DNA of 64,000 nt, from the NCBI RefSeq assembly GCF_027568395.1, contig NZ_JANKZL010000001.1:62001-126000 (forward strand), read 5' to 3'. Position 1 is the stretch's first letter; the number at the start of each line of letters is the position of its first letter. Positions 47,417 through 50,406 of the stretch are shown piece after piece. Source of the stretch: Aminobacter sp. HY435 (GTDB lineage: Bacteria; Pseudomonadota; Alphaproteobacteria; Rhizobiales; Rhizobiaceae). A model generated the notes under the pieces. It had not been told where the DNA came from and ran no database searches. It saw only the letters and a program-made list of their open reading frames with translations. The translations under genes and the position numbers were made by a program.

Positions 47417-48358
47417 TCAATAGAAGCCGAAATCCTGGGCGATCTGATCGCCCAACCGATTGTTGTCGCGAATGAAGTCAGCCAGGAACTCGTGCAGGCC
47501 GGTGTCGAAGATATCCTTGATCTCGGTGCCGCGCAGCTTGGCGTAGGTGCGTTCGGCGATGTCCTGCGCCGCATGCCTGGCGCCATAGTCCTCGCCGAGA
47601 AACTTCAGGTGCTCGGCGAGGAAACGGTAGCTGAAGGTCAGCGAACGCGGCATGCGCACATTTAGGATCAGGTATTCGGCGATGTTCGTCGGCTTGTATT
47701 CTGCCTCATAGACCCAGCGATAGGAGCGATGGGCGGCCACCGAGCGCAGGATCGACTCCCATTGATAGTTGTCCAGCGACGACCCCACCCAGGAGATCGA
47801 CGGCAACAGCACGTAGTATTTGACGTCGAGGATGCGCGCGGTGTTGTCGGCGCGCTCGACATAAGTGCCCAACTGGGCGAAGTCGAAGATCTCGTTGCGC
47901 AGCATCGTGCCGTAAAACGAGCCGCGGATCAGCGCCGTCTCACGCTTGATGGCGTCGAGGACTGCCGGCAACTCGCGCTGGTCGATCGGCTCGGCCAGCA
48001 TGCGTTTCAGCGACATCCACGCTTCGTTGATGCTTTCCCAGGTTTCGCGCGTCAATGCGGTGCGCACCATGCGGGCATTGTTGCGCGCCGTTTCGATCGC
48101 GGCGGCCGCACTCGAAGCGTTGGACATGTCGCGCAACAGGAAGTCGGCGACGTTTTCGGCGGTGTAGTCGCTGTGCCTTGCCGCAAACGCAGCCGCCGCT
48201 CCGGCAGACAGCAGCACCGAGTTCCACTCTTCCGATGCGTCTTGGCTGCGCGTCAGCGCCATGCGCAAGCCGGCGTCGATCAGCCTCGCCATGTTTTCGG
48301 TCCGCTCGATATAGCGGTTCATCCAGTAGAGGCCGTTGGCTGTGCGTCCGAGGAGCAT
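47417..48358 (-). CDS. Alpha-E domain-containing protein (Anbu operon)
   Basis: A 313-residue all-helical alpha-E (DUF403) protein. It opens MLLGRTANGLYWMNRYIERTENMARLIDAGLRMAL, the family hallmark. Later conserved points are FYGTMLRNEIFDFAQLGTYVERADNTARILDVKYY and WESILRSVAAHRSYRW. It is always encoded near circularly permuted ATP-grasp proteins (family knowledge). ATG at 48358 is 20 bases from an inverted-repeat-flanked element that now separates it from the ATP-grasp gene, so its expression may depend on read-through. Confidence 0.95.
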   Translation of the reverse strand: MLLGRTANGLYWMNRYIERTENMARLIDAGLRMALTRSQDASEEWNSVLLSAGAAAAFAARHSDYTAENVADFLLRDMSNASSAAAAIETARNNARMVRTALTRETWESINEAWMSLKRMLAEPIDQRELPAVLDAIKRETALIRGSFYGTMLRNEIFDFAQLGTYVERADNTARILDVKYYVLLPSISWVGSSLDNYQWESILRSVAAHRSYRWVYEAEYKPTNIAEYLILNVRMPRSLTFSYRFLAEHLKFLGEDYGARHAAQDIAERTYAKLRGTEIKDIFDTGLHEFLADFIRDNNRLGDQIAQDFGFY

Positions 48359-48378
48359 GTCAGAGGGACCTGCGGATG

Positions 48379-48414
48379 AGCGAATAGGGCATAGCGAATA
48401 GCGAATAGCGAATA
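48379..48414 (+). repeat. Left inverted repeat of heptad (GCGAATA) units
   Basis: AGCGAATAGGGCATAGCGAA is followed by two further TAGCGAA units and TA. It pairs with the right end in inverted orientation. The tail CGAATATTCG (48409-48418) is itself palindromic and ends beside the gene's stop codon. Confidence 0.8.
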
Positions 48415-48418
48415 TTCG

Positions 48419-48793
48419 TCATGATTTCTGCTGCAGGCTCCTGATCATGGAACGAACCATCCTGCCGATCTCGTCAGCTTGTTCGAGCAACTTCTTCGTC
48501 TCGACTTCACGCATCAATCCAACTCGGCCGCTCAGGTTCAGATGTGTTTCCAACTCTTTGAGCGAGCCTTGGGCCACTATGAGAAACTAGAAGAACGAAC
48601 CTGTACTCTCTCGACCATGTCCTTCCGCAATGTTCGCTGCGATGGAGGTCGCGGATCGTCTGATTTGCGAGGTCATCCCGTAGGTTTCGCTTGTAGGAAT
48701 CGCCTTGGTGGCAGAATAGCAGTCCACCGCCAGTTCGACCGAGGCTCTCCAAACAACCAGATCCTTGTATGAGTTGATCGTCGACGACAGCAT
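48419..48793 (-). pseudogene. Four-helix-bundle protein (23S rRNA intervening-sequence type), interrupted by one amber codon
   Basis: The 124-residue frame reads MLSSTINSYKDLVVWRASVE, then MTSQIRRSATSIAANIAEG HGRESTGSFF, a TAG at 48587-48589, then FLIVAQGSLKELETHLNLSG and on to SMIRSLQQKS. The family normally has a V-Q-F-L-R-I-A-Q type continuation here, and the frame stays in register across the stop, so a single CAG-to-TAG change fits. These small proteins occur inside rRNA intervening sequences and at other loci; their biochemical role is unknown. GGAGGA lies just before the ATG at 48793. A sequencing error or suppression cannot be excluded. Confidence 0.85.
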
Positions 48794-48800
48794 TTCCTCC

Positions 48801-48840
48801 CTATTCGCTATTCGCTACTCACTATTCGCTATTCGCCCTC
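48801..48840 (-). repeat. Right inverted repeat of heptad units
   Basis: CTATTCGCTATTCGCTACTC is followed by ACTATTCGCTATTCGCCCTC. Its reverse complement resembles the left end through repeated GCGAATAGC units, with an interruption (GTGAGTA). It abuts the ATP-grasp stop codon directly. Confidence 0.8.
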
Positions 48841-50253
48841 TTAGTCATCCAGCACCCACGTATCCTTCGTCCCGCCACCTTGCGACGAGTTGACGACAAG
48901 CGACCCCTCTTTCAGTGCAACCCGCGTCAGTCCGCCCGGCACGATGCGGATGCGGTCGGACACCAGCACGAACGGCCTGAGGTCGACATGGCGCGGCGCC
49001 AGCCCCTTCTCGGTCAGGATCGGACAGGTCGACAGCGACAGAGTCGGTTGCGCGATATAGTTTGCCGGTCTCGCTGCGAGCTTTTTCGAGAAATCTTCGC
49101 GTTCTTTCTTGGAAGCCGCCGGGCCGACCAGCATGCCGTAGCCGCCGGACCCGTGCACTTCCTTGACCACCAGTTCGGCCAGATGCTCCTGGACATATTG
49201 CAGGCTGTCGGGCTCCGAGCAGCGCCATGTCGGAATGTTGCCGAGGATCGGCTTGCGGCCGGTGTAGAACTCGATGATCTCCGGCATGTAGGAATAGATC
49301 GCCTTGTCGTCGGCGATGCCCGTGCCCGGCGCATTGGCGATGGTGATGTTGCCGGCGCGGTAGACGTCCATGATTCCAGGAACACCGAGTGCCGAGTCCG
49401 GCCTGAAGGTCAAAGGATCGAGATAGGCGTCGTCGACACGACGGTATAGCACGTCGATCTGCTTGTAGCCCTCGGTCGTACGCATCGCCACGCGCCCGTC
49501 GACGACGCGCAAATCTTGCCCCTCGACCAGTTGCACGCCCATCTGATCGGCAAGGAATGCGTGTTCGAAATAGGCCGAGTTGAAGCTGCCAGGTGTCAGA
49601 ACCGCGATCGTCGGCGCGCCGTGAACGCCGTTGGGTCGCACCGCCGACAGCGATTGCCTGAGCAACTGCGGATAGTTCTCGACCGGATGGACCTTGATAC
49701 GCTGGAACAGCTCGGGGAAGAGCTGGAGCATCGTCTCGCGGTTTTCCAGCATGTAGGAGACGCCCGACGGGGTCCGCGCATTGTCCTCGAGCACGTAGAA
49801 CTCGTTCTCAGAGATACGCACGATGTCGACGCCGATGATGTGGGTGTAAACGCCGGCCGGCGGCCTGACGCCGATCATCTCCGGCAAGAACGCCTCGTTG
49901 CCCGCGATCAGCTCGCGCGGCACGCGGCCGGCGCGCAGGATTTCCTGGCGGTGATAGATATCGTCGAGAAACGCGTTCAGCGCCTGGACGCGCTGTTCGA
50001 TGCCCTGGGTCAGCCGTCGCCATTCATTGCCCGAGATAATGCGCGGCACGATGTCGAAAGGGATCAGCCGTTCGGCGGCTTCCGCCTCGCCGTAGACGGC
50101 AAAGGTAATACCCGTCTTGCGGAACACCCTCTCGGCGTCACGCATTTTTTCGGCAAGCCGCGCGGGATCCTGGTTCTTCAACCAGCCATCATAGGCCTCG
50201 TACGGTCTTCTCAGGCCGGCTTGATCCGGAAGCATCTCATCGAAGGCGACCAC
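48841..50253 (-). CDS. Circularly permuted ATP-grasp protein (Anbu operon)
   Basis: A 470-residue circularly permuted type 2 ATP-grasp enzyme (DUF404/DUF407), predicted to ligate amino acid or peptide units using ATP. Marks are GITFAVYGEAEAAERLIPFDIVPRII, ILRAGRVPRELIAGNEAFLPEM, SENEFYVLEDNARTPSGVSYMLENRE, and near the C-terminus VVKEVHGSGGYGMLVGP with HVDLRPFVLVSDRI. The start is uncertain: the GTG at 50253 lies seven bases after GAGGGGAG, which I prefer to a TTG at 50259. It begins the Anbu operon. A 78-residue AsnC-type protein is encoded 150 bases upstream. Confidence 0.93.
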   Translation of the reverse strand: MVAFDEMLPDQAGLRRPYEAYDGWLKNQDPARLAEKMRDAERVFRKTGITFAVYGEAEAAERLIPFDIVPRIISGNEWRRLTQGIEQRVQALNAFLDDIYHRQEILRAGRVPRELIAGNEAFLPEMIGVRPPAGVYTHIIGVDIVRISENEFYVLEDNARTPSGVSYMLENRETMLQLFPELFQRIKVHPVENYPQLLRQSLSAVRPNGVHGAPTIAVLTPGSFNSAYFEHAFLADQMGVQLVEGQDLRVVDGRVAMRTTEGYKQIDVLYRRVDDAYLDPLTFRPDSALGVPGIMDVYRAGNITIANAPGTGIADDKAIYSYMPEIIEFYTGRKPILGNIPTWRCSEPDSLQYVQEHLAELVVKEVHGSGGYGMLVGPAASKKEREDFSKKLAARPANYIAQPTLSLSTCPILTEKGLAPRHVDLRPFVLVSDRIRIVPGGLTRVALKEGSLVVNSSQGGGTKDTWVLDD

Positions 50254-50406
50254 TGGCAAACTCCCCTCTCGGCCAGTGAAATGACCTCGAAAGGGAAAAT
50301 CAAGCGCAATCGCCCAATTCGGGCGAAGCCGGCTTCATGTTCGGAATTTTGCCCGCCATTTGGGCAGCGAGCTGCGGCTTTGGGCACGGGACTGCCTTTG
50401 CCGCGC

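Follow-up and report, generated by a model that had tools for sequence, protein, structure and literature searches.

A 23S_rRNA_IVP gene between inverted heptad arrays in an Aminobacter Anbu operon, probably related to the 23S rRNA intervening sequence and borne on mRNA

The window, i.e. the whole 64,000-nt stretch of Aminobacter sp. HY435 DNA that was analysed, contains an Anbu operon in which the ATP-grasp gene (48841..50259, minus strand; CP_ATPgrasp_2, PF14403, E 2e-167) is the upstream and the alpha-E gene (47417..48358, minus strand; PF04168, E 4e-90) the downstream cistron. Transglutaminase-like and proteasome-like (Anbu) genes were identified beyond alpha-E with Pfam. The gap between ATP-grasp and alpha-E is about 460 bp long and holds two inverted arrays of GCGAATA-type heptads which enclose a gene of the 23S_rRNA_IVP family (S23p, PF05635; hereafter IVP). 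The ATP-grasp stop codon TAA (48841-48843) is followed by a 4-nt spacer, GAGG (48837..48840, minus strand), which was 4 nt long also in loci L014-L016. The adjoining 5' array of 40 nt (48797..48836, minus strand) reads (GCGAATA)2 GTGAGTA (GCGAATA)2 GGGAG, and its final unit overlaps the likely Shine-Dalgarno sequence of the IVP gene. The IVP gene (48419..48793, minus strand) starts with ATG at 48793, is interrupted by an in-frame TAG (48587-48589) and ends with TGA (48419-48421). The 3' array (48379..48414, plus strand) is an inverted copy of the 5' array with the same period of 7. The 20-nt leader (48359..48378, minus strand) from the 3' array to the ATG of alpha-E is of the length that is typical of the ATP-grasp/alpha-E site, the median being about 20 nt.

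The arms of the window element are 35 nt long and 89% complementary, and form terminal inverted repeats around the S23p ORF. A period of 7 was determined for the arrays with TRF. With up to 2 mismatches, GCGAATAGCGAATA matched 8 times in the window, all in the insert (0.33 expected; 0 of 100 shuffles). The score of the IVP gene against PF05635 was 72.1 bits for the open part and 116 bits with read-through of the TAG, the cut-off being 33.8. A sequence-only reading had described an insert of about 460 bases with inverted heptads and an IVP-family gene in the Anbu operon, which is confirmed by the PF05635 match and the arms. The broken state of the four-helix-bundle gene, also claimed, is due to the single in-frame TAG. 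The right repeat was said to abut the ATP-grasp stop codon exactly, which has to be corrected, as the four nucleotides GAGG intervene. The profile search found no other IVP gene in this genome. The same heptads were detected at three IVP-less sites of it, C5:65466 (L164), C11:312065 (L006) and C24:392746 (L007). At the last site (L007 1435-1521, G000:C24) the heptad arms flank a terminator-like hairpin between convergent genes and start no more than 8 nt from both stop codons.

The predicted fold of IVP (pLDDT 95) matches 2gsc and 2rld, the S23-family structures of Xanthomonas (XCC0516) and Bacteroides. According to Pfam and the predicted fold, IVP is a small four-helix bundle in which no nuclease or transposase domain was recognised. 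The fold is common also with Avd of diversity-generating retroelements (DGRs; TM about 0.8), the identity being about 12%; among the Pfam-annotated genes adjoining the window IVP gene there is neither a reverse transcriptase nor a transposase. By the same annotation the neighbours of the element are ATP-grasp and alpha-E, and the element does not lie inside a 23S rRNA gene. Elsewhere, an IVP-like gene resembling the Avd gene of DGRs (L021, G034:C99:19845-23147) adjoins repeated segments of the GVFSLxLxxARSN..GFRPA type; heptad arms are not apparent at this locus, and it would be suited as a natural control.

The comparison covered 137 non-redundant IVP loci, mostly from Alphaproteobacteria, which were drawn from a set of 80 loci with a bias to relatives of the query and from searches with the Pfam model. 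At least two in-phase GNSART units were detected on both sides of the gene at 125 of the 137 loci and in 0 of 122 control windows. The heptad termini, which the sequence-only reading had proposed to seek around other four-helix-bundle genes, were found at nearly all of the other IVP loci. The modal number of heptads was four per side, and the unit consensus over 170 arrays was G-[CGT]-[CG]-A-[AG]-T-[A>C,G] (GNSARTN). The two arms had the major unit in common at 76 of 104 loci, compared with 25 expected by random pairing. Other units (e.g. AGTTAAA, AGGGATG, GGGATTC) were found in a phylum-wide sample, in which cyanobacteria and planctomycetes were represented by few loci, some of them from MAGs. 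The period was still 7 far outside the order; the best lag was 7 or 14 in 31 of 39 upstream and 33 of 38 downstream flanks (controls, 17 of 150). The architecture of the element family was thus observed directly: inverted arrays, each of about four to five units of 7 nt, stand on either side of a small IVP (S23p) gene. One IVP locus with period-7 heptad arms (L308) lies within an LSU rRNA gene.

Several loci deviated from this pattern. An octad period was determined on both sides for the IVP clade of the glnA site (L011, L012, L022, L123, L134, L141, L144, L153, L157, L161), and the period itself is therefore a clade trait. In the high-GC genome of L296 (G794:C17), the IVP gene is situated between apparent accB and accC genes and has GGGATTC-type arms which are similar to the Xanthomonas repeat. 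The upstream array of L295 (G759:C1) has grown to about 14 GTAGCGA units and the downstream counterpart array is absent. At L288 (G801:C6), a small SRP RNA gene is found in the vicinity of the element.

The loci were assigned to a few operon junctions by marker genes. The nuoC/nuoD junction accounted for 83 of the 137 loci, with 3 more where one of the two markers was identified, and ATP-grasp/alpha-E for 21. The numbers for glnA/FAD-oxidoreductase (with octad arrays), acyl-CoA dehydrogenase/HIBADH and other nuo junctions were 9, 7 and 4, respectively, and 10 loci were unclassified. Both neighbours were co-directional with IVP at 107 of the first 116 loci. The start of the left array was mostly at -8 to +13 nt relative to the stop codon of the upstream gene, and the next start codon followed the element after about 20 nt. 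The recurrence of this package across many bacteria, at a handful of operon junctions and in one case within a 23S rRNA gene, gives it the appearance of a selfish element that is widespread and has been overlooked. A GGAG-containing micro-hairpin of the right leader, seen at nuo sites, was considered as a general part of the element and was dropped: it was present at 37 of 117 loci versus 21 of 65 empty Anbu junctions, and was absent at two sites.

The heptad type changed 41 times on the IVP tree, while the shuffles never gave fewer than 76 changes, indicating that the arms go with the gene. The correspondence of arm type and IVP clade is a direct observation and was found even within one genome, where the different IVPs of L042 and L098 carry different units. 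The site changed only 5 times on the same tree, each of the few sites being mostly occupied by its own IVP clade. A large part of the pattern may therefore be ancient and result mainly from vertical inheritance with loss. Covariation of the arms at the base-pair level was tried and rejected: the own arms of a locus matched only slightly better than arms of the same unit type from other loci, and little pair-by-pair covariation was found beyond the common unit type.

At the Anbu site, occupied and empty junctions were observed directly among close relatives. Of 10 congeneric genomes, four are occupied (gap 469-482 nt) and six are empty (gap 17-19 nt), the empty spacers all being of one type, GGGGACGCTGAGACTTC and variants. 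Most of the about 110 ATP-grasp/alpha-E junctions in the family are also without the element. The element is thus not shared by all relatives at this position, which would have spoken against mobility if it had been the case. In the alpha-E tree of 109 sequences, the junction switches between occupied and empty at least 12 times, and the empty genomes of the genus group with occupied ones. The element may be actively mobile. No clean target duplication, as left by MITEs or IS-derived elements, was seen between filled and empty sites, the flanks being too diverged to show one. The arm type and the tree hint at two separate insertions of IVP at the Anbu site, but the AU test does not reject a single clade comprising all copies of this site (p 0.38, with a tree from 116 columns), and IVP elements may have colonised it once or more often. 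Short heptad elements without IVP were found at the ATP-grasp/alpha-E junction of 4 genomes and were of the GCGAATA, GTGAATG (two) and GTGAGTA/GCGAGTA types. The dN/dS of IVP among relatives at the Anbu site was about 0.03-0.11, which shows that the protein is maintained.

Such strong purifying selection would be expected also if IVP and its arms served the host as a gene of the operon, e.g. in control of the nuo or Anbu transcript, and had been inherited vertically and lost repeatedly, the heptads being a cis-regulatory stem. The small number of fixed sites with their site-specific IVP clades and the nearly constant co-direction with the operon fit this explanation as well. However, the gene is patchy in distribution (43 of 397 genomes of the order), 8 of the 137 IVP copies, the window copy and seven others, are frame-broken, and the empty congeners have a single type of 17-19 nt spacer. 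Furthermore, the Anbu-site junction holds also IVP-less heptad elements of other types, and IVP-less arrays are scattered over genomes. A host function is therefore considered unlikely, although it is the strongest of the alternatives to a selfish element.

Short heptad hairpins without IVP occur beside stop codons and are numerous in IVP-bearing genomes. One arm lies mostly a few nt from a stop codon, and the arms were convergent in the examined short elements with both arms found. Among 17 short elements with both neighbours called, the genes were co-directional in 9, convergent in 8 and divergent in 0. The co-occurrence of IVP with heptad arrays was observed in 151 genomes of the family (38 with both, 8 with IVP only, 17 with arrays only, 88 with neither; p 6e-15), and in 16 phylogenetically independent pairs about 12 agreed and 0.1 opposed (p 0.0005).

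REPINs are short palindromic elements which are present in many copies and co-occur with a partner gene. The many-copy short elements with convergent arms described here co-occur with IVP in a similar way, and they could be non-autonomous DNA elements which IVP mobilises as DNA, without any involvement of RNA processing. Unlike in the REPIN/RAYT system, the partner is the PF05635 four-helix bundle and not a REP-associated tyrosine transposase, and the arms are tandem heptads. The absence of a recognised nuclease or transposase domain from IVP speaks against movement at the DNA level, and the anchoring at stop codons and the orientation along the operon point to a constraint on the transcript. 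This explanation is considered somewhat less probable than a host function. Host-driven simple repeats arising by slippage, into which IVP genes land by chance, could account for the arrays in 17 of 105 IVP-less family genomes and for the over-representation of heptamer repeats in several genomes, in the accessible parts of whose reports IVP is unmentioned (PMC4692102, PMC4679880), but are strongly disfavoured and very improbable, given that the arrays are inverted around IVP at nearly all loci with a modal four units on each side, that the unit type follows the IVP clade, and that the two IVPs of the L042/L098 genome differ in their units.

The reading that we favour as probable is that the window insert is related to the 23S rRNA intervening sequence (IVS) and borne on mRNA, and that it belongs to a widespread selfish family with IVP between inverted heptad arms. 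The element closely follows a stop codon and has the orientation of the operon, which allows the IVP gene to be co-transcribed with its host. Pairing of the arms in the transcript would give a stem of about 35 bp and leave the IVP gene in the loop. The stability of a two-arm stem model was calculated to be -49 kcal/mol, and the arm stem was present in both the MFE and the centroid structure of the whole insert, the folding of which was only modestly better than that of shuffles (z -1.85). A large hairpin folding the gene out, as suggested before, is thus plausible in these models. The stem is probably trimmed by RNase III or a similar enzyme, and the cutting would be tolerated because it falls between cistrons. 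We infer that the tolerated locations are those where a transcript may be cut, i.e. rRNA loops and the spaces between cistrons. As the arms and IVP evolve jointly, the protein probably recognises the heptads; it probably also helps the element and its short IVP-less derivatives to spread.

The 23S rRNA IVSs with an S23p ORF in Leptospira and Coxiella encode the same protein family and are of comparable size, 428 nt versus about 460 nt here (PMC4990558). The Coxiella IVS is excised in vitro by RNase III at the stem of its terminal repeats, its ORF is decaying, and tandem GACAGAT heptads, the number of which varies between strains, precede S23p (PMC4990558). The stem-forming terminal inverted repeats, the decaying ORF and the heptads next to the S23p start are akin to those of the window element. 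In contrast to the 23S rRNA IVS, the window element is located between protein genes, both of its arms are full inverted heptad arrays and its processing is predicted.

Heptameric intergenic repeats have been described as GGGAATC in Xanthomonas, GGGGA(T/C)T in Nostoc and TAACTGA in Beggiatoaceae, according to the accessible parts of the reports. As in the GGGANTN class of heptad repeats, the arrays of the window and of other IVP loci consist of tandem 7-nt consensus units and come in convergent pairs. The Xanthomonas unit is likewise of 7 nt and fits GNSARTN, and convergent pairs are noted in the available portion of its description (PMC4692102). No IVP gene is mentioned in those parts of the Xanthomonas, Nostoc and Beggiatoaceae reports, whereas the arrays here bracket IVP. 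XCC0516, a pentamer of four-helix bundles (cited in PMC4990558), comes from the species in which the GGGAATC heptads, often as inverted pairs, are described in the same available portion (PMC4692102). A search of the open-access literature gave no description of inverted heptads in connection with IVP genes that lie outside rRNA.

A more speculative extension, which we regard as rather improbable, is that IVP pentamers form TRAP-like rings in which each subunit binds one heptad of a tandem array, and that the heptad-IVP elements, their short derivatives and the 23S IVSs are one RNA-spreading family which inserts at translation stops and in rRNA loops that tolerate a cut transcript. If true, this would explain also the heptads of Xanthomonas, Nostoc and Beggiatoaceae. 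The element joins two things that have been unexplained, namely the orphan S23p/IVP genes, whose structures are solved and which have no known function, and the intergenic heptad repeats. The results also indicate that, in many bacteria, an insert of selfish appearance occupies one exact junction of operons such as nuo.
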